Assembly: GCA_024692685.1 (NCBI GenBank)
Contig: JAILMJ010000008.1
Location: forward strand, 1 to 52,833
From: Clostridia bacterium
Lineage (GTDB): Bacteria; Bacillota; Clostridia; Oscillospirales; Acutalibacteraceae
DNA: 52,833 nucleotides
Direction: 5' to 3'
Part shown: positions 12,882 through 27,924 of the stretch, piece by piece
Layout of the letters: each line of letters begins with the position of its first letter
Numbering within the stretch: position 1 is the first letter of the stretch
Notes under the pieces: generated by a model
Databases searched by the model: none
What the model was told of the DNA's origin: nothing
The model's input: the letters and a program-made list of their open reading frames with translations, nothing else
Made by a program: the position numbers and the translations under genes

Positions 12882-12916
12882 GAAAATACAATCAAGTGCA
12901 GAACGGAGGTGACATT

Positions 12917-15900
12917 GTGTATTCATTCTTTTTATTTCTCAGGTCGGTAACAGGTTTCATTATTGCAATAATAATAGCAATCACCTGCTTCTTTTGCAGA
13001 CTGTTCCGTATTCCCTGCAAATACTGCAATAATCACGAAACCACCACTGTAACCCAGACTGCGGAATCCACAACCGTTACCTCAACCGTGCCTTCAACAG
13101 AACCTGTAACCGAACCCGGCAGCAAAATGATATCCGTCAATTACAGAATAATGCTTGAATCTGAGCAGGAAGGCGCTTATTACGGCGCGGGTATAATCAA
13201 AACAGGCGTGATTACCGTTGAAAACGGAAGCACGGTGGATTATGACGATGTAATTATTTCCGAGGGCTTTGCAACCCCCGAAGGCTATGTGCCCGATGAG
13301 AGCGCGCACTCCGTGCCTGCCGTTGAAAACCAGACCTGCAATTTCAAGCTGAAAAGAATAAAATTCGATGTCACCTGGAATAACGGCGACGGCACAAAGT
13401 CCGTCTCTGCCGAACGCTATGACTGCCCGGTAACCTCCCCCGTTCCGGAGCGGGAGAATTATACATTTGCAGGCTGGTACCGTTCGGAAACGGACGCCGC
13501 GTCAAAAACCGGCCGTGTTGACTTCGGTGACACTTACAATCCCGTCACGCTGAAATCCGCCGCTGAGTTTTATGCCGGCTGGGATTTCATATCCCATAAT
13601 GTTACGCTTACATGGAAGGATATTGACGGAACAGAGCACACCGCAGAAGTTCAGACAAGTGAGGATAAAACCACCGTCCTCGCTTCACTCGAGGGGATTA
13701 TGCCGGCTGAAGATTCCGTTGAAGGCTACAGGTTTGTGTTATACACCGACAGTGAATACAAAAATCCGGTAACCGATTCAACCGCGGCGGACAGCGATAT
13801 GCGGGTTTACGGCAGATTTGAACCTACATCAATCCCGGAATACAAAGTAACCTGGATTATCACCAAACCCGACGGTACCGTTGTTACAGACGACACCTCT
13901 ACATCTCCGAAACACGAAGGCGACGAATTCACCGATGCGGATGTTCCCGCCCTCGAAATGTTCCCGGGCTATGAACCTACGATAACAGGCGCCGAACCGG
14001 AGTTTAACGGCATTATGCCGGCCTCGGATTTACGCATCTATGTCGGTTATTCCCTCATTGAATATACGGTCACCTGGGTCTATACAGATGCAAACGGCAG
14101 CAGAGTCGAAGAATACTCACGCGGTCTGCATTTCGGAGACGATGTGCCCGATTTCCCGGGCAACACGGGAGAAAACGCAGTCATAGAGTGGGCTGTGCCC
14201 TCGTCTGTGGTTGACGGAAAGATGCCCGCCTCCGATGTTACAATCAACGGAACCTATTATTCCTTTGCCGAAGTTGAGATAGATCTGGAAACGGAAACCA
14301 CGGGTATTTTTGAAAAAGCCGCCTCCGGCAGAGTCAAATTTATACCGGGAACCGCGGTCACTTTTGAGGAAACGGCAAATCAGCTGGGTTACACCGTTCC
14401 GGATGGATTTGAGCCGGGGCCGAATTCGGAAAGCATAATCATGACGGAAGGCGGAACATACTCCGCCGAACTTAACCGCAAGGCCTATGAAATAACCTGG
14501 AACGCCGATAACGGTTACGACCCGCAGATTACTTACGGGCGGCACGGACTCGGTGTGATTCCTCCGACAGTAAGAAAAACAAATCATACATTTTCAGGCT
14601 GGTATCTTACCGCCGCAGATGCGGAAAACCTGCAATCGCCCGTTGACTTTTCAACATACACCGTCACGCAGAAAACAGATTTCTACGCGGCCTGGACTCT
14701 TACCGCCTATACAGCCACCTGCAGGTGGACGGACCTTGACGGAAATGACAGGGTAAGTATAACCAACAATATTCCGCTCGGCGCGAAGATAACCGAAAAT
14801 ATTGCTTCTCATATACCTGCCGCGGATTCCGAAACAGGCTATCTGTTTGTTCTCTACAAAGACAGCGGCTTCGGCACTCCGCTGACGGAAGACAATACCT
14901 CCGACAGCGACATCACGGTTTACGGCAGATATGAACTGATTGATTATACAATAACCTGGACATACACTCTGCCCGGAGAAACACAACCCTCCGTTTTCAC
15001 CGAAACGGCAAATATGGGTGATACCGTAACCGACTACGCCCACGAAACGGTGGATGGGTACGGATTTATGTGGGAAGACTATGACGAAATCATGCCCGCT
15101 TCCGACATAACGATAAACGGAATCTACGCCGAAAACAGTTATCCGGTGAAAATGATACTGAACGGAAAAACTGTTCATAAGGAACTGGTTACTGCGGGAA
15201 ATTCCGTACCCGGATTCACTCCCGATACAGTACCCAAGGGTATGAAATTCGTTGTTGTGAGCGATATTCCGGAGGCAATGCCTGCCGCAGATCTGGTGCT
15301 GGAATGCGCTTATGTGCCCGAGGATTACACCATCACCTGGACCTATATCGATCCCAACGGCAGCACCTACACAGACGATACTTCAAACACAACCATGCAC
15401 TACGGGGATGAGATTCCCGATCACTCCTACGCAGAATTTGAAAATTACAGTTTCCTCTGGAAATATCCCGACACCCTTGAGGACGGTAAAATGCCTGCGC
15501 AGGATATAACAATCACAGGCGAGTACACATACATTGGACCTCCGATTATTTATAAAGATTCGTTCGGCGGCACCGATTACGAGATAGTGACCGGAGCTTC
15601 CCGGTCGGGCGGAGACTACTGGGTATGCGGAAGAAGCAATTCAGACGACGGCGACTTTGCCGCTCTGCTTCCGTCCGATTACACCAAAACCATCGGAAGC
15701 CTCAACCACACTTACGGCTTTATCGCAAAGTATGATAAGAACGCAAACAGAACCGTTTTAAAAACGGTTTATGACGATTCCAAGGCTGTTTATGTTACGG
15801 GTATTTCGGCAATAAGCAATTCAAACGTTGCCGTTTGCGGCTATACCATAGACACCTCAAACAGCAGAGACGCTTTCGTCGCGGTTTACGATTCCGAAGG

Positions 15901-16861
15901 AACACAGAAGGTTTTCAGAATCCTTGAGGGAAGCGGTAATGACAGGCTCAGCTCGATTGCATCCGTACCCGGCGGCTTCGCGGCAGGCGGAGAAACTTTC
16001 TCCCTTGACGGAGACTATGCGTCCCTGCCCGCCGGTCACAGCTCAAATGCTTTCATAATGAAGTTCAAATATAACAATTCAACAAACGAATTGAGCATAG
16101 TTTTTATAAAATCACTCGGCGGGTCAAAAACCGCCGATGTCCCGGGTCTTTCCTCTGACAGCGCCGGCAATATTTACGCATCCGTGCGCACTACGGCCAA
16201 TGACGGCGATTTCGCGGCTTTCAGCGGGTTGACAGGCTCGACTTTTGACAACATAATACTCAAATACAACAGTTCCGGCACTCTTATGTGGTCGTATGTC
16301 CTTGCCGGCAGCGGCAACGAAAACTTTGACTGTGTCGTTGCCGACGGAGCAGGCGGCTGCGCTGTTGCGGGCTATTACACCATGCCCGGCTCCGCCAATA
16401 CGGGAACCATTGCGGATATAAACAATGTCGGCGGGATAGATTCCGTGCTCATAAAACTGTCCTCATCCGGCTCAAGGTCCTGGTTCAGGGTCATAGGCGG
16501 TCTGAAAGACGATTATGCAATCGGCCTCGCCAGAAGCGGTTCAAACTATGTTATCACCGGTTATACAAATTCATCAAACCGCGAATTTGACGAAAATTAC
16601 GGCGGTTATGACGGCTTTATGGATGTCGTTTCTTCAAACGGAAAGCAGACAGAATACTTCAACATCGGCGGTTCTCACAGAGACGTTGCCTCAGCGGTTG
16701 CCGCAAACGGAACCGACGTTATGGTATTCGGTTATTCAACATCCATTGACAACTGGTTTGAAGGTATCAACTCCAATATCACCGACGAAATCAGGGAAAC
16801 CTGGGGTCAGAACGAATATTACGACTGCTTCGCCGGCGGCTATTCGATAAGCGATTCATAA
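12917..16861 (+). CDS. Giant surface protein with InlB/Flg_new-type and MucBP-like repeats
   Basis: The GTG at 12917 is chosen because GGAGGT sits 6 nt before it; an upstream ATG lacks a ribosome site. The 1314-residue product has an N-terminal membrane helix (residues about 10-30), then a Thr-rich linker (about 40-70). Many beta repeats follow. Two are Listeria-Bacteroides type (about 152-222 and 524-592, each with F-(A/S)-G-W-Y and a final A-(G/A)-W). At least six others are of a T-W-x-Y/I ... D-G-K/MPA-(S/Q)D-(I/V/L)-T-I-x-G-x-Y type. From about residue 875 to the end the repeats change to propeller-like blades (G-x-x-x-D, A-V-A-G-Y/CGY). No LPxTG or SLH motif is present. It is probably an adhesin held by its N-terminal helix. 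Confidence 0.75.
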   Translation: MYSFFLFLRSVTGFIIAIIIAITCFFCRLFRIPCKYCNNHETTTVTQTAESTTVTSTVPSTEPVTEPGSKMISVNYRIMLESEQEGAYYGAGIIKTGVITVENGSTVDYDDVIISEGFATPEGYVPDESAHSVPAVENQTCNFKLKRIKFDVTWNNGDGTKSVSAERYDCPVTSPVPERENYTFAGWYRSETDAASKTGRVDFGDTYNPVTLKSAAEFYAGWDFISHNVTLTWKDIDGTEHTAEVQTSEDKTTVLASLEGIMPAEDSVEGYRFVLYTDSEYKNPVTDSTAADSDMRVYGRFEPTSIPEYKVTWIITKPDGTVVTDDTSTSPKHEGDEFTDADVPALEMFPGYEPTITGAEPEFNGIMPASDLRIYVGYSLIEYTVTWVYTDANGSRVEEYSRGLHFGDDVPDFPGNTGENAVIEWAVPSSVVDGKMPASDVTINGTYYSFAEVEIDLETETTGIFEKAASGRVKFIPGTAVTFEETANQLGYTVPDGFEPGPNSESIIMTEGGTYSAELNRKAYEITWNADNGYDPQITYGRHGLGVIPPTVRKTNHTFSGWYLTAADAENLQSPVDFSTYTVTQKTDFYAAWTLTAYTATCRWTDLDGNDRVSITNNIPLGAKITENIASHIPAADSETGYLFVLYKDSGFGTPLTEDNTSDSDITVYGRYELIDYTITWTYTLPGETQPSVFTETANMGDTVTDYAHETVDGYGFMWEDYDEIMPASDITINGIYAENSYPVKMILNGKTVHKELVTAGNSVPGFTPDTVPKGMKFVVVSDIPEAMPAADLVLECAYVPEDYTITWTYIDPNGSTYTDDTSNTTMHYGDEIPDHSYAEFENYSFLWKYPDTLEDGKMPAQDITITGEYTYIGPPIIYKDSFGGTDYEIVTGASRSGGDYWVCGRSNSDDGDFAALLPSDYTKTIGSLNHTYGFIAKYDKNANRTVLKTVYDDSKAVYVTGISAISNSNVAVCGYTIDTSNSRDAFVAVYDSEGTQKVFRILEGSGNDRLSSIASVPGGFAAGGETFSLDGDYASLPAGHSSNAFIMKFKYNNSTNELSIVFIKSLGGSKTADVPGLSSDSAGNIYASVRTTANDGDFAAFSGLTGSTFDNIILKYNSSGTLMWSYVLAGSGNENFDCVVADGAGGCAVAGYYTMPGSANTGTIADINNVGGIDSVLIKLSSSGSRSWFRVIGGLKDDYAIGLARSGSNYVITGYTNSSNREFDENYGGYDGFMDVVSSNGKQTEYFNIGGSHRDVASAVAANGTDVMVFGYSTSIDNWFEGINSNITDEIRETWGQNEYYDCFAGGYSISDS

Positions 16862-16903: not shown

Positions 16904-16932
16904 TTGACATAACCGCAGGTTCGTGCTAATAT
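16904..16932 (+). promoter_or_regulatory. Promoter of T-box leader 1
   Basis: TTGACA (16904-16909) and TAATAT (16927-16932) are separated by exactly 17 nt. Transcription should start near 16939, about 15 nt before Stem I of the T-box. Confidence 0.8.
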
Positions 16933-16952
16933 GTACGCAATTCAATATTGAA

Positions 16953-17220
16953 AAGCGATGACGAAGACGGAAAAAGCAGGGTAGCTTTACAGAGAGTCGG
17001 GGGTGCTGTGATCCCGGCAGTGAATGCTTTATTCTTATCCCTTCTGAGCTGAAGTGCAGAAAGTATTAAACCAGTAAGTGCTTCCGTGAATGCTACGTGA
17101 GTGCATAGGACTTGATTGAGTCCGAAGAGAGGCGCTTAACCAGCGCAATTTGAGTGGTACCGCGGGTATAATTTTATGCTCGTCTCAAAAGCCGTAAGGC
17201 GATTGAGACGGGTTTTTTTA
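16953..17220 (+). promoter_or_regulatory. T-box riboswitch 1, probable isoleucine (AUC) specifier
   Basis: The leader shows Stem I opening with GCGATGACGAAG, the AGAGAG bulge (16991-16996) and a distal hairpin GTCGGG/CCCGGC. A Stem III hairpin GGACT/AGTCC lies at 17108-17123, and the T-box TGGTACCGCGGG at 17155-17166. A terminator stem at 17181-17210 is followed by seven T residues. The lower stem GAAG/CTTC (CTTC at 17041-17044) fixes the specifier register. One spacer base before it, as in the well-studied glycine T-box, the codon is AUC at 17037-17039, meaning isoleucine. The T-box variable base is U, which pairs with a discriminator A, as in tRNA-Ile. Uncharged tRNA should stabilise the antiterminator and switch on the gene at 17260. 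The base after the codon is C and not the usual purine, so the codon call is moderate. Confidence 0.9.
17181..17219 (+). terminator. Conditional terminator of T-box 1
   Basis: CGTCTCAA / TTGAGACG form a stem closing on a smaller inner GCC/GGC hairpin, followed by a run of T. It competes with the antiterminator that uses the T-box at 17155-17166. Confidence 0.85.
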
Positions 17221-17259
17221 TTGCGATACACCTTATCATAATATACGGAGGAGATTAAT

Positions 17260-19524
17260 ATGGAACAGAATTCTCTCAACAGACTTGCTGAAATAGCGGC
17301 GCGTATAAAGGAGATGCGTGAGATTCTCGGCTTCAGCCAGGCAGAGATGGCCGAAAAAGCTGAAGTCACGCTTGAGGAGTATATTTGCTACGAAAACGGA
17401 GAAATTGATTTCCCCTTCACGTTTATCCACAAGTGCGCCCTTGCTTTTAATATTGAAATGACTGACCTTCTCGAGGGCAGCACCGCCCATCTTTCCTCAT
17501 ACACGGTCACAAGGAAAGGCGAAGGACATCAGGCGGCAAAAGAAGAGGGTATCACGATTCAGAACCTTGCCCCGAAATTCAAAAACAAGATTGCCGAGCC
17601 GTACTGGGTGCGTTATGAATACTCAAAGGAGCTTCAGGATAAGCCGATTCATCTGACAAAGCACGGCGGTCAGGAATTTGACCTGGTCCTGTCGGGCTCC
17701 CTGCTTGTTCAGATTGGCTCTCACAAAGAAGTGCTTCACGAGGGTGACAGCATCTACTACAACTCCTCAACCCCTCACGGAATGATTGCCGTTGACGGTC
17801 AGGACTGCGTATTCTGCGCTGTGGTGCTTGCCGGCGAAAACAACGATGAGTTTGTCATCAGAGAGAGCGTTGCCTCCGCACGTCCGACAACAAAACTCGT
17901 TGCGGAAAAATACGCCAAAACCGTTGAGGATGACAAAGGATATCTTCAGAGCATAACTTTCGAAAACACGGAGAAATTCAACTTCGGCTTTGATGTGGTC
18001 GACGTTCTGGGCAGAAAATACCCGGAAAAACTCGCAATGATACACCTTGATATAAATAAGAATGAAAGAAGATTTACTTTCAGACAGATTAAAGAGGAAT
18101 CATCAAGGTGCGCAAACTATTTCAGTTCCCTCGGTATAAAGAAAGGCGACAGGGTTATGCTCGTGCTCAGAAGGCACTATCAATTCTGGTTCGCCATGAT
18201 TGCTCTGCATAAGCTCGGAGCTGTCGCAATACCCGCAACCTATCTGCTCAAAGATCACGATTTCGAATACAGATATAACTCCGCAAATGTTTCCGCTATA
18301 GTCTGCACCTCATTCGGCGACACGGCGGAAATCGCTGAGAGAGCAGCGAAAAACTGCCCCTGTGTTAAAACCAAAATCCTTGTCGGCGGCTCAAGAGAGG
18401 GCTGGCACGATTTTGACAGTGAGTACAAGAAGTTTTCAAGCAGACTTTACCGCAATGACGCCACTCCCGGCGGCGAAGACACCGCGCTGATATTCTTCTC
18501 ATCGGGAACAACCGGAGAGCCGAAAATGGTTGAGCACAAGCACACTTATCCTCTTGGCCACTTCGTGACGGCAAAGTATTGGCACTGCTGTGAGAGAGAC
18601 GGCCTGCACTTCACCATCTCGGACACCGGCTGGGGCAAGGCCCTCTGGGGCAAGCTGTACGGCCAGTGGCTCTGCGAGGGAGCGGTATTTGTCTATGACT
18701 TTGACCGTTTCTCATCTGCGGACATCATGCCTCTTTTCTCGCAATACGGCATAACAACATTCTGCGCGCCGCCGACAATGCTCAGAATGATGATAAAAGA
18801 GGATCTGAGCAAATACGATTTTTCGTCGGTAAAGCATATGACCACTGCAGGCGAAGCGCTTAATCCCGAAGTCGCCAAGCAGTTCGAAAAACTGACGGGG
18901 CTTGAAATAATGGAAGGCTTCGGTCAGACTGAAACAACTCTCACCATAGCAAACCTTGTCGGCTGCCCCATCAAAACAGGGTCAATGGGTAAGGCTTCGC
19001 CGCAGTATGAAGTTGATATTGTCGATCCGGATGACAATCCGGTTGCCGACGGCGAAACAGGCGAGATTGTCATCAGAACAGGCAACGGAATGCCCGTCGG
19101 CCTTTTCAAGCAGTACAATAATGAAGAGGAAAAGACCGCCGAGTGTATGAGAAACAATTTGTATCACACAGGCGATACCGCCTGGCGCGACGAGGACGGT
19201 TATTTCTGGTATGTCGGCAGAGTCGATGATGTTATCAAGTCATCCGGCTACCGCATAGGGCCTTTTGAAATCGAAAGCGTAATTATGGAACTTCCCTATG
19301 TTCTTGAATGCGGAGTTTCCGCCGCGCCCGATGAGATAAGAGGCCAGGTTGTCAAGGCGTCAATCGTTCTCACAAAGGGTACACAGGGAACCGATGAACT
19401 CAAGAAAGAGATTCAGCAATATGTCAAGGAGCACACCGCCCCCTACAAATATCCGAGAATAGTGGTATTCCGTGATGAACTTCCGAAAACCATCAGCGGA
19501 AAAATCCGCAGGAATCTCCTTTAA
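17260..19524 (+). CDS. HTH-cupin-acyl-CoA synthetase fusion protein 1
   Basis: This 754-residue protein joins three parts. An XRE-type helix-turn-helix (about 10-70; RIKEMREILGFSQAEMAEKA) is followed by a cupin-2 domain (about 130-195; GGQEFDLVLSG ... STPHGMIAV). The third part is a full AMP-forming acyl-CoA synthetase (about 230-754) with FFSSGTTGEPK, GFGQTET, YHTGD, YVGRVDDVIKSSGYRIGP and the C-terminal catalytic Lys in PKTISGKIRR. The ligase part resembles the short/medium-chain acyl-CoA synthetase group (ACSM-like), making acyl-CoA from acid, ATP and CoA. The HTH and cupin are the pair normally seen in transcription factors. Control by an Ile-type T-box suggests the substrate is 2-methylbutyrate, precursor of isoleucine. 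The ribosome site is GGAGGAG. Confidence 0.85.
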   Translation: MEQNSLNRLAEIAARIKEMREILGFSQAEMAEKAEVTLEEYICYENGEIDFPFTFIHKCALAFNIEMTDLLEGSTAHLSSYTVTRKGEGHQAAKEEGITIQNLAPKFKNKIAEPYWVRYEYSKELQDKPIHLTKHGGQEFDLVLSGSLLVQIGSHKEVLHEGDSIYYNSSTPHGMIAVDGQDCVFCAVVLAGENNDEFVIRESVASARPTTKLVAEKYAKTVEDDKGYLQSITFENTEKFNFGFDVVDVLGRKYPEKLAMIHLDINKNERRFTFRQIKEESSRCANYFSSLGIKKGDRVMLVLRRHYQFWFAMIALHKLGAVAIPATYLLKDHDFEYRYNSANVSAIVCTSFGDTAEIAERAAKNCPCVKTKILVGGSREGWHDFDSEYKKFSSRLYRNDATPGGEDTALIFFSSGTTGEPKMVEHKHTYPLGHFVTAKYWHCCERDGLHFTISDTGWGKALWGKLYGQWLCEGAVFVYDFDRFSSADIMPLFSQYGITTFCAPPTMLRMMIKEDLSKYDFSSVKHMTTAGEALNPEVAKQFEKLTGLEIMEGFGQTETTLTIANLVGCPIKTGSMGKASPQYEVDIVDPDDNPVADGETGEIVIRTGNGMPVGLFKQYNNEEEKTAECMRNNLYHTGDTAWRDEDGYFWYVGRVDDVIKSSGYRIGPFEIESVIMELPYVLECGVSAAPDEIRGQVVKASIVLTKGTQGTDELKKEIQQYVKEHTAPYKYPRIVVFRDELPKTISGKIRRNLL

Positions 19525-19624
19525 TCCCTCAAAAGCGCTCCTGTGCAGGGTGAATACTGCCGGTTTTTCAATAATATTTGAAAATCAGGCTTAATCAAGG
19601 TGTTTAATTCGTTAAAAATAAACA

Positions 19625-19653
19625 TTGACAAATACGGAAAGTTGATTTATTAT
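19625..19653 (+). promoter_or_regulatory. Promoter of T-box leader 2
   Basis: TTGACA (19625-19630) and TATTAT (19648-19653) are spaced by 17 nt. The 2nd leader thus has its own promoter even though no terminator separates it from ligase gene 1, so read-through from the first transcript is also possible. Confidence 0.75.
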
Positions 19654-19666
19654 ATTGTGCAATAAA

Positions 19667-19937
19667 GGCTTTGACGAAGAGAGCCTGTGCAATGTGGCTT
19701 TTCAGAGAGACAGCGTTCGGTGTGAGCTGTCAGTTTACGGCACAGGATTGTAGCTTCCGAGCCGGGAGGAAGAAAGCGAAAGTGAGTAGAACCTCCCCGT
19801 GATTGCTGCGTGAATGCATAAGGCTTGTCTGAGCCTGATGAGAGGTGCTTTTAAAGCGCAATTTGAGTGGTACCGCGGGTTTTGATTTTTCATGGCTCGT
19901 CTCAAAGTTTTCAATCAACTTTGGGGCGGGTTTTTTA
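19667..19937 (+). promoter_or_regulatory. T-box riboswitch 2, probable valine (GUA) specifier
   Basis: Stem I is closed by GGCT (19667-19670) with AGCC (19760-19763), then GAAG with CTTC (19754-19757). Above the specifier loop CCTGTGC (19684-19690) pairs with GCACAGG (19740-19746). The AGAGAG bulge, a Stem III hairpin AGGCT/AGCCT (19821-19836) and the T-box TGGTACCGCGGG (19868-19879) are present, then a terminator stem and six T residues. The loop's 3' side is ATTGTAG; the codon one base before CTTC is GUA at 19750-19752, valine, followed by G as expected. The variable T-box base U fits the discriminator A of tRNA-Val. The leader should control ligase 2 and all downstream genes to 26596. Confidence 0.92.
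19896..19936 (+). terminator. Conditional terminator of T-box 2
   Basis: CTCAAAGTT and AACTTTGGG arms with flanking CTCG/CGGG pairs form the stem at about 19896-19930, followed by TTTTTT. It lies about 35 nt ahead of the start codon of ligase gene 2. Confidence 0.82.
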
Positions 19938-19971
19938 TTGAGCAGCCCGCCCGGCACTCCAGGAGGAAAAA

Positions 19972-22260
19972 ATGGAAATATCAAATCTCGATACCAGAAT
20001 CAAAGAGATGGCCGCCCGTATCAGGGAGCTTCGCGAGGTCGAGGGTATTTCGGTCGAAACCATGGCAGAAAAGACGGGAACAACTGTCGAAGAATATCTT
20101 GCCTGTGAAAACGGTGAGAGCGACCTTAACTTCGCATTCCTCTACAAATGTGCTGCGGCTTTCTCGGTAGATGTTACCAACCTTATCGAGGGACACAGCC
20201 CCAAGCTCTATTCCTACTTCGTTAACCGTAAAGGCGATGCGCCGAAGATTACGGATGCCCACGGCATGACTTACTACAACATGGCGTATGCTTTCAGAAA
20301 CAGGATTTCGGAGCCTCTCTATGTTGTGAGCAAATACGATGAGGAAGCTCAGCGCAAGGCAATTGAACTCACAAGCCACAGCGGTCAGGAACTCGATATA
20401 GTCATTGACGGCTACCTGTGCGTCCAGGTCGGCGAGCACAAAGAGACACTGGGGCCCGGAGACAGCATATATTACGATTCCGGCACTCCCCACGGAATGA
20501 TAGCGGTCAACGGGCAGGACTGCAGCTTTTACGCAATAGTCCTCAACCCGACCGGCGAGCCGATTCCTGAACTTGCGGCGGCAAAAAAGGTCGATGCCCC
20601 GTCAAAAGGACATATAAGAGACACAAAAGACCGTGTATATAAGAGATATATCGACACCGTCGAAGATGAAAACGGAACACCGGTTTCCATCAGTTTCAAA
20701 AATCAGGAGCATTTTAACTTTGCGTTTGATATCGTTGATGAGATAGCAAACAAAGATCCCGATAAAATCGCGCTCCACTATGTTTCAAACAATAAGGAAT
20801 ATAAATCATTTACATTTAAAGAAATAAAGCAAAATTCAAATCGCTGCGCAAACTACTTCAAGAGTCTCGGCATCAAGAAGGGTGACAGAGTAATGCTTGT
20901 GCTGAAGAGACACTATCAGTTTTGGTTTGCAATACTCGGCCTTCACAAGCTCGGCGCAATACCCATCCCCGCCACAAATCAGCTGCTTGTTCATGACTTC
21001 GAATACAGATTCAAGGCGGCGAATATCACATCAATAATCTGCACGGCAGACGGCGAGGTTTGTGACAATGTTGACGAGGCGCTCAAGAGTTACGACGGCA
21101 TGGCCAATAAGATGATCGTAAACGGCGAGCGCGATGGGTGGCGGACCTTTAACGAAGAATATGTTCTTTACAGCAGCCATTACCCGAGACCCGCCGATGC
21201 GCCCTGCGGCAAGGATTACATGCTGATGTATTTCACCTCTGGCACTTCGGGATATCCCAAGATTGCAACCCATAACTACCTCTATCCGCTCGGCCAGTTC
21301 CACACGGCAAAATACTGGCACGACGTCGATCCCGACGGAATCCACTTCTCAATATCGGATACCGGCTGGGCAAAGGCGGCCTGGGGAAAGCTCTACGGCC
21401 AGTGGATGTGTGAAACTTCACTCTTTGTATATGACTTTGACCGCTTCCACGCGGAAGATGTTTTACCGATGTTCGCAAAATACAACATCACAACCTTCTG
21501 CGCGCCGCCCACAATACTCAGGATGCTCATCAAGCAGGATATCACGCACTACGATCTGTCTTCAGTGCAGCATATGACAACGGCAGGCGAAGCTCTGAAC
21601 CCCGAGGTTTACAGACAGTTTGAAAAGGCCACGGGTCTGCAGATACTCGAAGGCTTCGGTCAGACGGAAAGCCCCGTTTTGCTCGCGAACTTCAGAGGAG
21701 CGGACCATAAAGTCGGATCAATGGGCAAAGCAGCACCTCACCTGAATATCAAACTCCTTGATACGGACGGCAAACCGGTTCCTCCCGGAGAAACCGGCGA
21801 AATATGCGTCGATATCAGCAAGGGAATACCAAACGGCATAGCGGTCTGCTACTTCGGTTCTCCCGATAAAACGGCGGAAACCTGGAGAGACGGCTGGTAT
21901 CACACGGGCGATACGGCCTGGATGGATGAAGACGGATTTTTCTGGTATGTCGGCAGAGTCGATGACGTCATCAAATCCTCCGGCTACCGCATAGGACCGT
22001 TTGAAATAGAAAGCGTAATAATGGAGCTTCCTTATGTTCTTGAGTGCGGAGTTTCCGCCGCGCCCGACCCTGTCAGAGGCCAGATAGTCAAAGCAAGCAT
22101 AGTCCTGACCAACGGCACGGAAGGTACGGAAGAGCTGAAAAAGGAAATCCAGCAATATGTCAAAGAGCATACCGCTCCTTACAAATACCCCAGACTCGTT
22201 GTTTTCCGCGAGGATCTTCCCAAAACGGTCAGCGGAAAAATAATGAGAAATCTGCTGTAA
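19972..22260 (+). CDS. HTH-cupin-acyl-CoA synthetase fusion protein 2
   Basis: This 762-residue paralogue of the protein at 17260 has the same order: HTH (about 10-72), cupin (about 133-200; SGQELDIVIDG ... GTPHGMIAV) and AMP-forming ligase (about 235-762). Ligase motifs are YFTSGTSGYPK, GFGQTES, YHTGDTAW, the same GRVDDVIKSSGYRIGP block and PKTVSGKIMR with the catalytic Lys. The last 100 residues are almost identical to paralogue 1, while HTH, cupin and acyl-pocket regions have diverged, as expected for duplication followed by substrate change. Its valine-type T-box suggests isobutyrate as substrate. It is the first gene of a long operon with ilvE and the oxidoreductase. The ribosome site is AGGAGG. 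Confidence 0.85.
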   Translation: MEISNLDTRIKEMAARIRELREVEGISVETMAEKTGTTVEEYLACENGESDLNFAFLYKCAAAFSVDVTNLIEGHSPKLYSYFVNRKGDAPKITDAHGMTYYNMAYAFRNRISEPLYVVSKYDEEAQRKAIELTSHSGQELDIVIDGYLCVQVGEHKETLGPGDSIYYDSGTPHGMIAVNGQDCSFYAIVLNPTGEPIPELAAAKKVDAPSKGHIRDTKDRVYKRYIDTVEDENGTPVSISFKNQEHFNFAFDIVDEIANKDPDKIALHYVSNNKEYKSFTFKEIKQNSNRCANYFKSLGIKKGDRVMLVLKRHYQFWFAILGLHKLGAIPIPATNQLLVHDFEYRFKAANITSIICTADGEVCDNVDEALKSYDGMANKMIVNGERDGWRTFNEEYVLYSSHYPRPADAPCGKDYMLMYFTSGTSGYPKIATHNYLYPLGQFHTAKYWHDVDPDGIHFSISDTGWAKAAWGKLYGQWMCETSLFVYDFDRFHAEDVLPMFAKYNITTFCAPPTILRMLIKQDITHYDLSSVQHMTTAGEALNPEVYRQFEKATGLQILEGFGQTESPVLLANFRGADHKVGSMGKAAPHLNIKLLDTDGKPVPPGETGEICVDISKGIPNGIAVCYFGSPDKTAETWRDGWYHTGDTAWMDEDGFFWYVGRVDDVIKSSGYRIGPFEIESVIMELPYVLECGVSAAPDPVRGQIVKASIVLTNGTEGTEELKKEIQQYVKEHTAPYKYPRLVVFREDLPKTVSGKIMRNLL

Positions 22261-22290
22261 TATAAAAGATTATGAAAGGAAGTCAATAAA

Positions 22291-23358
22291 ATGGAAATCA
22301 AAATCACAAAAACCAACAACCCCAAGGCAAAACCCGCAGATGAATCCAAACTCGGTTTCGGAAAAATCTTTACCGATCATATGTTTATGATGGATTATAC
22401 AGCTGAAGAAGGCTGGCACGATGCAAGAATCGTTCCCTTTGACTACATTCCCATTCATCCCGCATCAACCGTTCTTCACTACGGCACGGAGATTTTTGAA
22501 GGACTCAAAGCATACAGAACAGTCAACGGAGACATCCGTATGTTCCGCCCCATGGAAAACATCAGACGTATGAACAACTCTGCGGAAAGGCTCTGCCTTC
22601 CTCAGATTGACGAGAAGGATGCTCTTCAGATTCTTGACACCATCGTTGAGATGGAAAAGGACTGGGTTCCCCATTCGGAAGGCACTTCCCTCTATCTCAG
22701 ACCGTTTATGTACGGCAACGAACCCCATCTCGGTGTTCATGCCGTTAAAATCGCAACCTTCGTCGTAATCTGCTCCCCCGTCGGCGCATATTATGCAGAG
22801 GGAATCAACCCCGTTAAAATCGCCATAGAGTCCGAGGATGTCAGAGCGGTCAAGGGCGGCACCGGCTATGCCAAGTGCGGCGGTAACTATGCCGCTTCCC
22901 TCAGAGCCGGCGAAAAGGCGGAGGAAAAGGGCTTTACCCAGGTTCTCTGGCTTGACGGTGTTCACAGAAAGTATATCGAAGAAGTCGGCTCAATGAATGT
23001 TATGTTCAAGATTGACGGCGAAATCGTAACTCCCGAACTCACAGGTTCGGTACTTCCCGGCGTTACAAGAAAATCCTGCGTTGAGCTTCTCAAAGAGAAA
23101 GGATACAAAGTTTCCGAGCGCCTCATCTCCGTTGACGAACTCTTTGACGCTGCCAGAGCGGGCAAACTTGAAGAAGCCTGGGGCACAGGCACTGCGGCAG
23201 TTGTTTCACCAATCGGCTGGCTCAGCTACAAGGGCGAAGAGTTTGAGGTTAACGGCGGCAAAATAGGTGATGTTACTCAGGCGCTCTATGACGAGCTTAC
23301 CGGTATCCAGTGGGGCAAGATTGAAGACAAACACAACTGGTGCCATAAGGTATGCTGA
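22291..23358 (+). CDS. ilvE: Branched-chain amino acid aminotransferase
   Basis: The 355-residue protein is a fold-type IV PLP aminotransferase. The family signature TGYAKCGGNYAAS contains the PLP lysine, Lys195, and the phosphate-binding region includes the GTGTAAVVSPIG motif. It reversibly converts 2-oxoisovalerate, 2-oxo-3-methylvalerate and 2-oxoisocaproate to Val, Ile and Leu using glutamate. It follows ligase 2 by 30 nt with AAAGGAAG as ribosome site. It overlaps the next gene by 7 nt (ATGCTGA). In this operon it would be the final step from 2-oxoacid to amino acid. Length and motifs are normal for the eukaryote-like large BCAT group. Confidence 0.93.
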   Translation: MEIKITKTNNPKAKPADESKLGFGKIFTDHMFMMDYTAEEGWHDARIVPFDYIPIHPASTVLHYGTEIFEGLKAYRTVNGDIRMFRPMENIRRMNNSAERLCLPQIDEKDALQILDTIVEMEKDWVPHSEGTSLYLRPFMYGNEPHLGVHAVKIATFVVICSPVGAYYAEGINPVKIAIESEDVRAVKGGTGYAKCGGNYAASLRAGEKAEEKGFTQVLWLDGVHRKYIEEVGSMNVMFKIDGEIVTPELTGSVLPGVTRKSCVELLKEKGYKVSERLISVDELFDAARAGKLEEAWGTGTAAVVSPIGWLSYKGEEFEVNGGKIGDVTQALYDELTGIQWGKIEDKHNWCHKVC

Positions 23359-24014
23359 GTGACAGAAGAGTAACTCTTTTCTGCGGCCACTACGGCAGCG
23401 GCAAAACAAATATATCGGTAAACTATGCGCTTTACCTGAAAAACAACGGAAAAGAAGTTGATATAGCGGATATGGATATTGTCAATCCGTATTTCCGCAC
23501 AAAGGACAGCGAAGAGTTGCTGAACACGGCAGGCATAAGGCTCATCTCTCCCCGCTTTGCCAATTCAAACGTCGACCTGCCCGCTCTTCCTCAGGAGCTC
23601 TACGGACTTTTTGAAAGAAGAGAGAGGTGCGCGGTGCTTGATATCGGCGGAGATGACAGAGGCGCCTATGCCCTGGGCAGATTCACTCCCTTCATTCTGG
23701 AGGAAAACGACTATAACAACCTCTACGTGGTAAATTTTTACCGCCCTCTTACGATGACCGCGGCAGATGCCTTTGAAGTCATGAAAGAAATTGAAGCGGC
23801 GGGCAGAATTCCGTTTACGGGAATAGTCAACAACTCCAATCTCGGAGAGGAAACCGCCGCCGAAACGGTTGAAAAAAGCGCTGCGGCAGCCGCGGAGCTT
23901 TCCGCTCTGTCGGGAGTACCCGTTGTGATGACGAGCGTAAAAAGCGATATTGCCGGAGATGTCAGGCTGGAAAATGTTTTTCCTCTCCGGTTACAGGCAA
24001 AGTATTACAGTTAA
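23352..24014 (+). CDS. P-loop ATPase of unknown role in the oxidoreductase operon
   Basis: This 220-residue protein starts with a P-loop GHYGSGKTN (residues about 12-20) followed by a deviant MinD/ParA/ArsA-like pattern: DMDIVNPYFRTKD after strand 2 and VLDIGGDDRGA as Walker B. It is expected to be a soluble ATPase or GTPase. Its start codon is embedded in the stop of ilvE, so it is translationally coupled. It precedes the ferredoxin-type subunit by 16 nt. I cannot name its function. Position suggests help in assembling or metallating the oxidoreductase (Fe-S clusters) or a CO-dehydrogenase-accessory-like role, but that is inference from context only. Confidence 0.7.
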   Translation: MLSDRRVTLFCGHYGSGKTNISVNYALYLKNNGKEVDIADMDIVNPYFRTKDSEELLNTAGIRLISPRFANSNVDLPALPQELYGLFERRERCAVLDIGGDDRGAYALGRFTPFILEENDYNNLYVVNFYRPLTMTAADAFEVMKEIEAAGRIPFTGIVNNSNLGEETAAETVEKSAAAAAELSALSGVPVVMTSVKSDIAGDVRLENVFPLRLQAKYYS

Positions 24015-24030
24015 GAAAGGAATGTTTTTA

Positions 24031-24237
24031 ATGGCAAAGGTTACCTTTGATACGGATCTGTGCAAGGGCTGCGGACTGTGCGTGAGCGCCTGCCCCAAAC
24101 AGATTCTCGTTATTGCAAAGGACAAAATAAACAAAAAAGGACATTCTCCCGCTGAAATGACAGATCAGTCCAAATGCATCGGCTGCGCTTTCTGCGCAAC
24201 CATGTGTCCCGACTGCGTTATAACAGTAGAAAAGTGA
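24031..24237 (+). CDS. 2-oxoacid:ferredoxin oxidoreductase delta subunit, 2x[4Fe-4S] ferredoxin type
   Basis: The 68-residue start at 24031 (MAKVTFDTDL) follows AAAGGAATG and is preferred over an upstream frame extension. It has two C-x2-C-x2-C-x3-C-P motifs (CKGCGLCVSACPK and CIGCAFCATMCPD), binding two 4Fe-4S clusters. It passes electrons between external ferredoxin and the clusters near TPP in the catalytic subunits. The position first in a delta-alpha-beta-gamma order is typical of KorDABC/VorDBAC-type enzymes. Confidence 0.92.
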   Translation: MAKVTFDTDLCKGCGLCVSACPKQILVIAKDKINKKGHSPAEMTDQSKCIGCAFCATMCPDCVITVEK

Positions 24238-24247
24238 GGTGTTGAAA

Positions 24248-25312
24248 ATGGCTGAAAAAGTTCTTATGAAAGGTAACGAAGCAATAGCTGAGGCCGCCAT
24301 CAGAGCCGGCTGTCTTCACTACTTCGGATATCCCATCACTCCGCAAACGGAGCTTGCCGCATATATGGCAAAGAGAATGCCCAAAATTGAAGGCGGAGTC
24401 TTCCTTCAGGCTGAGAGTGAAATCGCCGCAATCAATATGGTTTACGGCGTTGCATCCACGGGCAAAAGGGTTATGACTTCATCATCAAGCCCCGGAGTTT
24501 CACTTAAACAGGAAGGTATATCATACATAGCGGGCGCAGATTTGCCCGCACTCATAGTCAACGTGCAGAGAGGCGGCCCCGGTCTCGGCGGTATCCAGCC
24601 CTCTCAGTCCGATTATTTCCAGGCCACCAAGGGCGGCGGACACGGCGACTATCATCTGATAGTGCTCACCCCGGCTTCGGTGCAGGAAATGGCGGACCTT
24701 ACAGGCCTCGCATTTGACCTTGCGGATAAATACCGTATGCCCGCAATGCTGCTCGCAGACGGCACCATGGGTCAGATGATGGAGCCCGTTGAGCTCCCCG
24801 AAACAGCCCCCGAAATGATAGAGAAACCCTGGGCTGTCACCGGCACAAAGATGCAGAGAAAACACAATATAATCAACTCGCTCTACCTCGTGCCCGAAGA
24901 GCTTGAAAAGACAAACTTCGAGCGCTACGAAAGATACGCACAGGTTGAGAAAAACGAGGTCAGGTATGAAGAGTATATGATGGATGACGCCGAGATATGC
25001 GTTGTCGCATTCGGCATTGCCGCCCGTGTTTCCAGAAACGCCGTTGTTGAGGCAAGAAAACAGGGTATCAAGGCAGGCCTTATCAGACCCATCACAATCT
25101 GGCCCTTCCCCAAAGAGGCAATCGCCAAGGCGGCAACTCACTGCAAGGAGATAATCTCCGTTGAGCTGTCAATGGGTCAGATGATAGAGGATATAGCCCT
25201 TGCAAGCGAGTGCAGGGTTCCCGTTACACTCTGTAACAGAGCAGGCGGTATGATCCCCTCACCCGATCAGGTATTTGACTCAATCAAAAAAGCGGCAGGA
25301 GGTAATAAATAA
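24248..25312 (+). CDS. vorB: 2-oxoacid:ferredoxin oxidoreductase alpha subunit (VorB/KorA type)
   Basis: The start at 24248 ([15 protein letters not shown]) is chosen because GAGG lies 8 nt upstream; an in-frame GTG three codons earlier overlaps that site. The 354-residue subunit has the [15 protein letters not shown] pyrimidine-binding region, the [15 protein letters not shown] and [15 protein letters not shown] motifs and the RGGPGLGG loop. It resembles the subunit usually annotated as 3-methyl-2-oxobutanoate dehydrogenase VorB. The complex interconverts 2-oxoacid plus CoA with acyl-CoA plus CO2, using ferredoxin. In the presence of strongly reduced ferredoxin it can run as a reductive carboxylase. 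Preference for branched-chain oxoacids is inferred from the ilvE neighbour. Confidence 0.88.
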
Positions 25313-26064
25313 TGGCAATCGTATTTGAAAAACCCAAATCACTGACCGATGCGCCGCTCCATTACTGCCCCGGCTGCACCCACGGTATAATTCACCGCCT
25401 CGTTGCCCAGGCAATCGACGAACTCGGCATTGAGGGCAGAACCATCGGCGTTGCTCCTGTAGGCTGCGCGGTTATGGCTTATAACTATTTCAGCTGTGAT
25501 ATGGTTGAGGCCGCTCATGGCAGAGCACCCGCGGTTGCAACAGGTCTCAAGAGGAGCCTGCCCGAGAACATCATATTTACCTATCAGGGCGACGGCGACC
25601 TTGCCTCAATCGGCATGGCGGAAACCGTTCACTCCGCAACAAGAAACGAAAACATCACTGTTATATTCGTCAACAACGCAATCTACGGTATGACCGGCGG
25701 TCAGATGGCTCCGACTTCACTGCCCGGTCAGATTACCCAGACCTCTCCCTACGGCAGAGACGTAAAAACAGCCGGTTATCCAATCAGGATCTGTGAGCTT
25801 CTCTCAACCCTCGACGGTCCGGAGTATATCGCCAGAGTTGCCGTAAACAATGTCAAGAACGTAAACCAGGCCCGCAAAGCCATAAAGAAGGCGTTTGAAA
25901 ATCAGGTGAACAACAAGGGATTTTCTCTTGTTGAAATCGTTTCATCCTGCCCGACAAACTGGGGTATGACTCCCATTGACGCTCTCAAATGGATAGATGA
26001 GAATATGATTCCTTATTATCCTCTCGGCGTTTACAAAGACAGAAGCGCAAAGGAGGGCGAATAA
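25312..26064 (+). CDS. 2-oxoacid:ferredoxin oxidoreductase beta subunit (TPP-binding)
   Basis: This 250-residue subunit starts 1 nt inside the alpha stop codon (TAATG), with AGGAGG upstream. It carries CPGCTHG, the GVAPVGC loop and the TPP/Mg motif [13 protein letters not shown] ending in [12 protein letters not shown]. These features place it in the KorB/VorA group, which binds thiamine diphosphate and contributes to the intersubunit active site. Length is normal. It works as a complex with the neighbouring delta, alpha and gamma subunits in the cytoplasm. Confidence 0.9.
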
Positions 26065-26065
26065 T

Positions 26066-26596
26066 ATGACCACTCAGATACTTATAGCCGGCTTCGGCGG
26101 TCAGGGCGTTCTCTTTGCGGGAAAATTTCTCGCATACAAGGCGCTGCTCGAAAATAAGCAGCTCTCATGGCTTCCCTCATACGGCCCCGAAATGCGCGGC
26201 GGCACGGCAAACTGCAGTGTCATCATCAGCGATGAACCCGTCGGCTCTCCGATAGTTTCAAAGCCCGATGTTCTCATTGTTATGAACCTGCCCTCGCTTG
26301 ACAAGTATGAGGACGCAGTTGTACCGGGCGGCAAAATCTTTGTTGACTCCACTCTTATTGAGAGAAAGGTCAACAGAACCGATGTTGAGGTTCACTATAT
26401 CCCCGCCACAAAGCTTGCGAATGACATCAACGCGCCGACACTTGCCAATATGATAATGATAGGCAAGGTCATCAAGGAAACGGGTGTTGTTCCCTACGAT
26501 AACATTGACAAGGCGCTTGATAAGGTCGTTTCAGCCAGAAAGGCTGCTTTGAAGGAAATCAATTTCAAAGCCCTGGATACCGGTTATAACAACTGA
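26066..26596 (+). CDS. 2-oxoacid:ferredoxin oxidoreductase gamma subunit
   Basis: The 176-residue protein has the POR gamma-domain signature [15 protein letters not shown] at the N-terminus and the [10 protein letters not shown] motif near residue 48, which helps bind CoA. It follows the beta gene by 1 nt with AGGAGG. It completes the four-subunit enzyme and is the last gene before a strong terminator, so the transcript from T-box 2 ends here. Confidence 0.92.
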
Positions 26597-26619
26597 TAAA
26601 ACAGGATATGCAAATTTAA

Positions 26620-26652
26620 GGGACCGTGAAATTCACGGTCCCTCTGTTTTTG
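26620..26652 (+). terminator. Terminator of the ligase/ilvE/oxidoreductase operon
   Basis: A perfect 9-bp stem GGGACCGTG / CACGGTCCC (26620-26628, 26634-26642) with loop AAATT is followed by TCTGTTTTTGG. Confidence 0.88.
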
Positions 26653-26702: not shown

Positions 26703-27134
26703 TTATTTCTGAGTGAAACTGTCAACGGTTATGCTCAAATCGTCCGAAACGTTTATGACGGCAACATACTGCTCAATCGTGCTGTTTTCTTCAAACGAAC
26801 GGGAATATGAAAAGGTCAATGTCGCCTTGCCGGGCTTCCGTGCTTTGAAAGTATAATACTGCGTTCCGCCTACGCCCACCATATTGCCTGATTTTTTATC
26901 CGTCACATAGTCTTCTCCGGTCATTTCAAGAACACCGTCGTCACCTTCGGTTTCATAACTCCAGGTAAAGCCGGTAGAGGTATTTGCCTTGAATGAAAAC
27001 TCGACCGTCTGCTTATCGATGCGATAGCCGGCGTTGCCCACTTTAACATCGGGCTCGGGCTTACCGGAGAATAATCCGAAAGTCGCAAGAATGCTCATAA
27101 AGAAAGCCACGATTTTTTGAATGATTGATGCCAT
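26703..27134 (-). CDS. Chagasin-like (I42 family) secreted protease-inhibitor homologue
   Basis: The start at 27134 (MASIIQK) follows AAAGGAGGATG and gives 143 residues; an upstream start has no such site. A hydrophobic helix (residues 5-22) serves as signal or anchor, then a single beta-sandwich domain follows. It holds the inhibitor loops of chagasin proteins: NTSTGFTW, a GVGGTQYYTFKA loop, and a Lys/Arg-rich K-A-R-K-P-G-K segment. Characterised I42 proteins block papain-like cysteine proteases. No cysteine protease is encoded nearby, so it may protect against host or competitor enzymes. It is a single-gene unit; a TATAAT box lies upstream (about 27192-27197) with a poor -35. Confidence 0.75.
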   Translation of the reverse strand: MASIIQKIVAFFMSILATFGLFSGKPEPDVKVGNAGYRIDKQTVEFSFKANTSTGFTWSYETEGDDGVLEMTGEDYVTDKKSGNMVGVGGTQYYTFKARKPGKATLTFSYSRSFEENSTIEQYVAVINVSDDLSITVDSFTQK

Positions 27135-27274
27135 TTTTACATCCTCCTTTGACTCTTTTGCGCAAATCATTGCATTTAATATTGCATAATGATTATATCA
27201 GACATATGTTAAAAATGTGTTAACCCGGATTTAAAAATGAGTTCCGGAGCGGACGGGCGTATCAAAAGTTTGTA

Positions 27275-27405: not shown

Positions 27406-27924
27406 ATGCTATGTCAGAATTGCGGAAAAAATGAGGCGGGAACTCACATTAAACAAATAATAAACGGCGAAATGTCCGAACTGCATCTTTGCAGGGAATG
27501 CGCCATTCATCTCGGATACAATGATGTCTTTTCGGGTTTCAATGTTAATCTTCCGGGTCTTTTCGGCAGCTTTCTGAATGATATGCTGCCCTCTGTTTCA
27601 CCCGAAAAAACGGAAAGATGCCCCAGATGCGGCTCCACCTTCAGCGATATCGCCGGGGAGGGTAAGGCAGGCTGCTCGGAATGCTACAAAACCTTTTATG
27701 ATAAGCTTCTTCCCTCCATCAGACGAATGCATGGCGAAACAAGATATCAGGGTAAGATAAGCGCAGGCCGTGAGGCCTCAGCCGAAATACCCGACGCGGG
27801 CAACGCCGATAAAATCCGTGAGCTCAGGGAAGCAATGGATAAAGCGGTTGCCGCCCAGAATTTTGAGGAAGCAGCAAAAATCAGAGATGAAATCAAAGCG
27901 CTTGAGGGGGGTGACCGGCAGTGA
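27406..27924 (+). CDS. mcsA: McsA, zinc-finger activator of the protein arginine kinase
   Basis: The 172-residue protein has an N-terminal C-x2-C ... C-x2-C zinc knuckle (CQNCGKNEAGTH, LCRECAIHLG) and a second pair (CPRCGSTFSD, GCSECYKTF). A UVR motif lies at the C-terminus (about 135-168; REAMDKAVAAQNFEEAAKIRDEI). McsA binds and activates McsB so that it marks misfolded proteins on arginine for ClpCP degradation. The start has GGAAGGAGTG upstream. The gene overlaps mcsB by 4 nt (GTGA). Neither ctsR before it nor clpC after it is present, unlike the four-gene operon of Bacilli. Confidence 0.9.
   Translation: MLCQNCGKNEAGTHIKQIINGEMSELHLCRECAIHLGYNDVFSGFNVNLPGLFGSFLNDMLPSVSPEKTERCPRCGSTFSDIAGEGKAGCSECYKTFYDKLLPSIRRMHGETRYQGKISAGREASAEIPDAGNADKIRELREAMDKAVAAQNFEEAAKIRDEIKALEGGDRQ

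Follow-up and report, generated by a model that had tools for sequence, protein, structure and literature searches.

We describe a locus in the genome of a Clostridia bacterium of the Acutalibacteraceae (GCA_024692685.1, contig JAILMJ010000008.1; the window, the whole stretch analyzed, comprises positions 1 to 52,833) in which two T-box leaders, with isoleucine and valine specifiers, precede two acid-CoA ligases, an aminotransferase, and a four-subunit oxidoreductase. The locus is very likely an anabolic salvage operon that converts acids to acyl-CoAs, carboxylates these reductively, and transaminates the products, replacing the missing ilvBCD route. Branched-chain acids are long-known growth factors of rumen anaerobes; to our knowledge, the genes that activate them for amino acid synthesis, and the control of those genes, are hard to point to. 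In this genome the control RNA names the product of each ligase, and the specifier therefore predicts the substrate: 2-methylbutyrate for isoleucine, isobutyrate for valine, and perhaps isovalerate for leucine. Such an operon would give a genetic basis for the old growth-factor observation in gut anaerobes and makes the question testable.

Anatomy of the locus

All features lie on the forward strand. Position 16904, where the preliminary description had the locus begin, is the -35 hexamer of a promoter-like site of ligase A (TTGACA-17-TAATAT, 16904 to 16932, matching the consensus at 10 of 12 positions), and a second such site (TTGACA-17-TATTAT, 19625 to 19653, 11 of 12) precedes the second leader; both are consensus matches only, from a scan that returned 20 in the region compared with 10.2 (SD 2.7) in shuffled sequence. 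The two T-box leaders that had been claimed are both real. Leader 1 (16949 to 17190) scores 87.9 bits against RF00230 (E = 5e-19), slightly below the gathering score of 93, and leader 2 (19662 to 19907) scores 97.3 bits, above it. Each has a specifier loop, an AGAGA bulge, a UGGN motif (UGGU at 17155 and at 19868), and a terminator alternative. The terminator hairpin of leader 1 (17178 to 17213, with a T-run to about 17220) was read from the fold (segment -27.2 kcal/mol, z = -4.6) and is absent from the terminator scan list; that of leader 2 (19894 to 19932, with a T-run) was found by both scan and fold. Stem I alone folded no better than shuffled sequence in either leader (z = +1.1 and -1.2).

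From the alignment and the 8-nt loop rule, the specifier before ligase A is AUC (Ile, 17037 to 17039) and that before ligase B is GUA (Val, 19750 to 19752). According to passages of the TBDB paper (PMC7778990), it is uncharged tRNA, and hence shortage, that opens a T-box, and AUC is the usual isoleucine specifier (0.99). The tRNA-Val(UAC) of the genome has discriminator A, which fits UGGU; no tRNA-Ile(GAU) was seen in the metagenome-assembled genome, which is 91% complete. All five other T-boxes of synthetase operons in the genome have fitting specifiers (pheS UUC, valS GUA, alaS GCC, cysE-cysS UGC, thrS ACC), read by eye with the genes known beforehand; automated reading of the same five was right for alaS alone, wrong for valS, and gave no reading for pheS, cysE-cysS, and thrS.

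The two proposed acyl-CoA synthetase fusions are borne out: ligase A (17260 to 19524, 754 residues) and ligase B (19972 to 22260, 762 residues) each carry helix-turn-helix (HTH_19/HTH_3), Cupin_2, AMP-binding, and AMP-binding_C domains in Pfam, so that the N-terminal part is an HTH-cupin. The best curated family for both is MbcS (NF047394; 438 bits for A and 410 for B). Its cut-off of 850 lies above both scores, and we therefore describe the ligases as working like MbcS rather than as members. The solved protein closest to ligase B is Macs_Ma (3etc), at 598 bits against 337 for the runner-up. In the portions of the respective reports available to us, Macs_Ma of Methanosarcina acetivorans prefers 2-methylbutyrate (PMC10455477), and the ATP-dependent MbcS of Staphylococcus aureus uses 2-methylbutyrate and isobutyrate (PMC10026030). 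Judged by these relatives and by the specifiers, ligase A is probably a 2-methylbutyryl-CoA synthetase and ligase B an isobutyryl-CoA synthetase. Aromatic substrates were rejected for both, the specifiers being those of isoleucine and valine and the aromatic arm lying elsewhere in the genome. An AlphaFold model of ligase B (pLDDT 59) was set aside.

Next comes IlvE, a branched-chain aminotransferase (22291 to 23358; PRK13357, 480 bits, cut-off 307; TIGR01123, 391 bits, cut-off 250). The P-loop NTPase that follows it (23352 to 24014, 220 residues) also adjoins the oxidoreductase in relatives; its sequence is weakly similar to MinD/ApbC, and its predicted structure (pLDDT 88) finds only SRP/HypB-like matches. 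The 2-oxoacid:ferredoxin oxidoreductase comprises a 4Fe-4S delta subunit (24025 to 24237), an alpha subunit, VorB (24248 to 25312; PRK07119, 551 bits, cut-off 399), a thiamine diphosphate beta subunit (25312 to 26064; PF02775), and a gamma subunit (26066 to 26596; PF01558). In the TIGR02175/02177/02179 models, the gamma subunit passes the cut-off (PorC_KorC, 82.6 versus 81.1 bits) and the beta (PorB_KorB, 122 versus 262) and delta (PorD_KorD, 44 versus 60) subunits fall below it, with the domains present. An 11-pair stem with a T-run (26619 to 26643; fold, -20 kcal/mol; z = -5.6) is a strong terminator and the single closing one that had been described, and the ORF list and domain search place all eight ORFs in the order given earlier.

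Distribution of the ligases and absence of canonical pathway genes

The preliminary description had suggested a search for like loci in other Clostridia, and such loci were found. Among 166 distinct ligases of the A/B kind, 143 have a readable specifier (69 Ile and 74 Val), and every one of the 143 agrees with the clade of its ligase. One branch splits Ile from Val, with a support of 1.0 for the Ile side in a single FastTree tree. Fifteen of the T-boxes in this census were read by eye from the sequence, and for 18 of the 166 ligases no T-box was read within 420 nt. Since GUN always encodes valine, variation among GUA, GUC, and GUG is weaker evidence than it appears. Of 80 named loci, 43 have alpha, beta, and gamma genes in the flank examined, and IlvE accompanies them in 34; in 28 of the 80 none of the three was found there, and in 12 of these 28 the flank examined reaches about 8.6 to 9 kb downstream of ligase B. 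T-box labels in this survey are lower bounds, since the automated caller misread a few. Many of the named relatives bear ruminant-gut sample names.

A search of the genome (91% complete) with ilvB, ilvC, ilvD, and leuD models gave no match for ilvC, for ilvD, or for a separate leuD; a check for lack of ilvC and ilvD in genomes with this locus had been proposed in the preliminary description. No IlvB exceeded the cut-off (best, 284 versus 538 bits), and the sole Aconitase_C protein is aconitase. With the searched de novo genes absent, the cell needs a source of isoleucine and valine; on the salvage reading, absence of ilvC and ilvD need not imply a requirement for the preformed amino acids.

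The proposed test of whether genomes with the locus lack ilvC, ilvD, and leuA was made for ilvC across 297 genomes of the order. Among the matches listed, 41 of these genomes have a B-type ligase, and only 4 of the 41 have ilvC; the remaining 256 include 159 with ilvC (p = 2e-10 by the Fisher test, ignoring kinship between genomes). Lack of ilvC thus goes with the B-type ligase, but four B-type genomes keep the gene, and it is also missing from 97 of the 256 others. Leaving out one genome (G038) whose B-type ligase has an Ile box gives 3 of 40 versus 160 of 257 among the matches listed. B-type genomes were picked by hand at about 62% identity or more among the matches listed, so fragments may be missed; one member of the 40-genome set (G014) carries a 63% fragment of ambiguous type, lacks ilvC, and was left out of the B-type count.

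The proposed route and its alternatives

The proposed route would run as follows. Uncharged tRNA-Ile would let T-box 1 permit transcription of ligase A, which would convert 2-methylbutyrate to 2-methylbutyryl-CoA, with ATP going to AMP. Uncharged tRNA-Val would let T-box 2 permit transcription of the shared enzymes as well as of ligase B, which would convert isobutyrate to isobutyryl-CoA. Running reductively, the four-subunit oxidoreductase would join acyl-CoA and CO2 at the expense of reduced ferredoxin, and IlvE would aminate the resulting 2-oxoacids to isoleucine or valine. A point against this scheme is that the oxidoreductase and IlvE depend on T-box 2, which a shortage of isoleucine by itself would leave closed. 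This anabolic route, already put forward in the preliminary description, is supported by the Ile and Val specifiers, the nearest characterized ligases, and the lack of ilvC, ilvD, and leuD matches. If it is correct, the operon is a possible genome marker of dependence on branched-acid cross-feeding.

The ligases could instead mainly supply branched acyl-CoA primers for membrane lipids, with the T-boxes sensing a shortage of primers derived from amino acids. MbcS, their closest curated family, is described in the available part of its report as feeding FabH and lipid synthesis (PMC10026030), and T-box-ligase genes without a neighboring oxidoreductase exist. However, lipid synthesis has no use for IlvE or the four oxidoreductase subunits, which in the window stand with ligase B under the valine T-box; the oxidoreductase and IlvE recur in the flanks counted above; and 37 of the 41 B-type genomes, among the matches listed, have no ilvC. 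We consider a lipid role improbable. It is very improbable that the oxidoreductase is a 2-oxoglutarate synthase whose place in the operon is incidental, with IlvE using the resulting glutamate. The top family names are indeed 2-oxoglutarate ones (OGOR_delta for delta and PRK09628 for beta), and the solved relatives of alpha include 2-oxoglutarate, general 2-oxoacid, and pyruvate enzymes, but those name scores are far below cut-off whereas VorB exceeds its own, the control is by a valine specifier, and the oxidoreductase adjoins Val or Ile ligases in many loci. A catabolic operon, in which IlvE would transaminate isoleucine and valine, the oxidoreductase would form acyl-CoA, and acids would be released in a Stickland-like fermentation, is very improbable: 2-oxoacid ferredoxin oxidoreductases and aminotransferases are reversible in principle, but T-boxes open on shortage, giving the control the wrong sign for amino acid fermentation, AMP-forming ligases spend ATP, and the searched de novo genes are missing.

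Related arms and known systems

Four of the nine T-boxes detected in the genome control acid-CoA-ligase operons. Beyond the two above, a Leu T-box (CUC, at C17) precedes a degenerate LeuA and another ligase, and a Phe T-box (UUC, at C90) precedes a ligase and an indolepyruvate oxidoreductase; in two relatives the specifier is UAC (Tyr). Canonical leucine synthesis through the LeuA relative was rejected, since it scores 214 bits (cut-off, 532) and its relatives have degenerate RDGEQ and HxH motifs. With a single LeuA that has RDGEQ (from L133) as the reference, the R and the D of this motif never occur together in 41 distinct relatives (44 rows), nine of which have the R, and no relative has the two His of HxH. 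The allosteric domain of LeuA is retained, and the Phe arm carries an ACT-domain pair. We suggest, tentatively, that the Leu, Ile, Val, and Phe T-boxes, each controlling its own acid-CoA ligase, might form a regulon, responsive to tRNA, for building amino acids out of environmental carboxylic acids. The protein part of each arm (LeuA pseudoenzyme, ACT pair, or HTH-cupin) might respond to the end product, in which case the same salvage step would be under feedback from both RNA and protein.

The Phe arm parallels the Ile/Val operon with relatives of indolepyruvate ferredoxin oxidoreductase and phenylacetate-CoA ligase under a T-box; it differs in being directed to aromatic acids, for which the genome also has the shikimate route (chorismate synthase). 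Ligases A and B resemble MbcS, an ATP-dependent enzyme of branched C4 and C5 acids in the part of its report available, as their best curated match, but differ in their HTH-cupin N termini, their T-boxes, and scores about half the family cut-off. With Macs_Ma they share, by our reading of the alignment, a Trp matching Trp259 and a Gly replacing the Trp of acetyl-CoA synthetase, both invariant in 10 aligned ligases; the aligned part of Macs_Ma has no HTH-cupin domain, and the portion of its report available describes no role in a biosynthetic operon (PMC10455477).

Synthesis of branched-chain amino acids by reductive carboxylation is known from tracer work, and as far as the accessible part of that account goes (PMC7356843), its overall chemistry, from acid through acyl-CoA and 2-oxoacid to amino acid, equals that proposed here. 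In the literature available to us, which covered few subscription papers, we found no work on this chemistry naming the ligase genes or their control, and none that links T-boxes to either acid-CoA ligases or 2-oxoacid ferredoxin oxidoreductases; the available TBDB text likewise does not mention acyl-CoA, ferredoxin, or ligase (PMC7778990). The leaders share the Stem I specifier, UGGN, and terminator of the T-boxes described there and differ in controlling genes for acid-CoA ligase and ferredoxin oxidoreductase. The chemistry and the riboswitch are each known, and their pairing appears to be the new element.

Architecture of the operon and its leaders

Both T-box leaders, the eight genes and the single terminator of the preliminary description were found on the + strand of the window (operon at about 16904-26643), as were two promoter-like sites matching the consensus. 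T-box 1 (16949-17190) precedes ligase A (17260-19524), and T-box 2 (19662-19907) precedes ligase B (19972-22260), IlvE, a P-loop protein and four oxidoreductase subunits. T-box 2 scores 97.3 bits, above the Rfam gathering score; T-box 1 falls slightly short of it, at 87.9 bits (E 5e-19), but its AGAGA bulge, UGGU motif and terminator hairpin are all present. Their specifier loops, UCUU[AUC]C and GAUU[GUA]G, indicate Ile and Val, respectively. As a control, the specifiers of the other five synthetase-operon T-boxes in the source genome, a MAG, were read by eye, with the genes (named by eye from translations) already known, and all five fit: pheS UUC, valS GUA, alaS GCC, cysE-cysS UGC and thrS ACC; automated reading was correct for alaS alone. 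The tRNA-Val(UAC), tRNA-Leu(GAG) and tRNA-Phe(GAA) of this genome all have discriminator A, which pairs with UGGU, and the thrS T-box has UGGA, with discriminator U in tRNA-Thr. No tRNA-Ile(GAU) was among the 45 tRNA matches in the MAG.

Ligases A and B share the domain order HTH (XRE type), cupin and AMP-forming acyl-CoA synthetase. The HTH-cupin parts (17260-17835 and 19972-20580) could possibly be a built-in sensor or autorepressor; at one relative locus (L062) this part is its own gene immediately upstream of the ligase, and a split match suggests the same at another (L066). MbcS is the best NCBIfam match of both ligases, at 438 and 410 bits, so far below the cut-off of 850 that neither is classed as MbcS, for which 2-methylbutyrate and isobutyrate are preferred substrates and isovalerate is a poor one (excerpt of PMC10026030). 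The best solved relative of ligase B, at 598 bits (runner-up, 337), is 3etc, the Macs of Methanosarcina acetivorans, whose preferred substrate is 2-methylbutyrate (excerpt of PMC10455477). VorB and IlvE score above curated cut-offs and the gamma subunit barely so; the beta and delta subunits fall below, and their closest family names are 2-oxoglutarate enzymes. The P-loop NTPase (23352-24014), found alongside the oxidoreductase and without a named family, gives SRP/HypB-like fold matches from its predicted structure and may possibly be a cluster-maturation helper.

Directly 5' of the operon, on the + strand, lies a gene for a 1321-residue protein (12896-16861) with Listeria-Bacteroides repeat domains (Pfam), likely a surface protein. 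A Chagasin-family (I42) peptidase inhibitor gene (26703-27170) converges with the operon end, and farther downstream are a UVR-motif gene and a guanido phosphotransferase gene (27406-28928), which we take to be McsA-like and McsB-like.

Specifiers and gene order among relatives

The preliminary description proposed a search for the same T-boxes and gene order in other Clostridia. The T-boxes recur, with a readable Ile or Val specifier for 143 of 166 distinct ligases. The set (167 ligases, including the window's two) came from 40 genomes and 80 named loci, the latter uncultured or metagenome-assembled by record title and many from ruminant gut samples; it required at least 44% identity, at least 700 residues and a match start within the first 40, with shorter or truncated ligases excluded and near-identical ones left unmerged. 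Ile is read from AUC in 69 cases and Val in 74 (GUA 64, GUC 9, GUG 1), 15 of the 143 readings being made by eye. A single FastTree branch with support of 1.0 separates 69/69 Ile ligases from 74/74 Val ligases. In the script-read Ile boxes, AUC is flanked by variable bases on either side, so the in-frame triplet is the sole constant part; since GUN always encodes Val, third-base differences alone are no proof of selection. The remaining ligases comprise 18 without a T-box read inside 420 nt, 3 with unreadable specifiers and 2 cut at contig ends; by inspection, B genes among the 18 mostly lie directly 3' of ligase A, and three A genes lie directly 3' of a Leu-arm ligase.

The gene order held in part. 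Alpha, beta and gamma subunits are near the ligase in 43 of the 80 named loci (34 of these also have IlvE in the examined flank), but none were seen in 28. Some of the 28 end with the contig; 12 have about 8.6 to 9 kb 3' of ligase B, and these subunit-free flanks indicate that a solitary ligase B under a Val T-box is common too. At six loci (L139, L159, L170, L181, L187 and L198), a lone ligase B stands under a Val T-box with no oxidoreductase match in the ~9-kb flanks on either side, so partner enzymes, if any, are located elsewhere.

De novo pathway genes not found

The source genome (91% complete) gave no match to ilvC or ilvD, no IlvB over the cut-off (best, 284 bits versus 538) and no separate LeuD, since the only protein with Aconitase_C scores above the cut-off for an aconitase. 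Whether genomes with the locus lack ilvC and ilvD, a test that had been suggested, was examined in the 40 genomes: the 15 with a ligase of the B type, counting G009 (Val T-box plus fragment) and the fragments of G003 and G005, have 0 ilvC, 0 ilvD and 0 IlvB over the cut-off, and of the other 25, 11 have ilvC and 11 have ilvD over the cut-off. Chorismate synthase is present in 35 of the 40, so gene loss through assembly is not general. Among 297 genomes of the order, each at least 85% complete, the rule is not absolute: ilvC is found in 4/41 with a B-type ligase (about 62% identity or more among the matches listed) versus 159/256 without (Fisher p = 1.8e-10, kinship ignored). The exceptions are G310, G107, G179 and G038, the last with an Ile-box ligase. 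Contrasts also occur within genera g33 (G244 versus G298 and G316) and g129 (G287 versus G245, G257 and G317).

Leu and Phe arms and the proposed control

Nine T-boxes were detected in the source genome, five above the gathering score; five precede synthetase operons and four precede acid-CoA-ligase operons, two of them in the window. The third, with a Leu specifier (CUC; L067, contig C17, 7120-12156), leads a relative of LeuA, an 819-residue fusion of TIM barrel and AMP-ligase, and an Amidohydro_2 protein. The fourth, with a Phe specifier (UUC; L111, contig C90, 6028-12029), leads an AMP-ligase, IorA (above the TIGR03336 cut-off), a POR protein resembling IorB, a relative of PaaK and an ACT-pair protein; in G020 the matching box has UUC, and in G018 and G024 it has UAC (Tyr). 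The LeuA relative and TIM/ligase gene also occur in 29 of the 80 named ligase loci. LeuA_dimer is kept in all six LeuA relatives scanned, and the catalytic and metal-binding residues, judged by the motifs RDGEQ and HxH, are kept in 0 of 41 distinct sequences; our guess from these sequences is a leucine-sensing pseudoenzyme.

In the mechanism that we propose, scarcity of Ile or Val would leave the tRNA uncharged, and this tRNA would keep the leader in its antiterminator form. An open T-box 1 would yield ligase A, and an open T-box 2 would yield ligase B, IlvE and the oxidoreductase; external branched acids would then be activated and carboxylated, with reduced ferredoxin as electron donor, before being aminated. 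Since IlvE and the oxidoreductase are both downstream of the Val box, the pathway should answer to Val status, with Ile status tuning ligase A only. Such Val-dominated control of shared enzymes is odd logic and should be regarded as a weakness of, or a prediction from, this mechanism.

T-boxes on genes for branched-chain amino acids are already known. The route from acid to amino acid has long been established by tracer work (cited in an excerpt of PMC7356843). Our literature search found no description of T-boxes on branched-acid ligases with a ferredoxin oxidoreductase.
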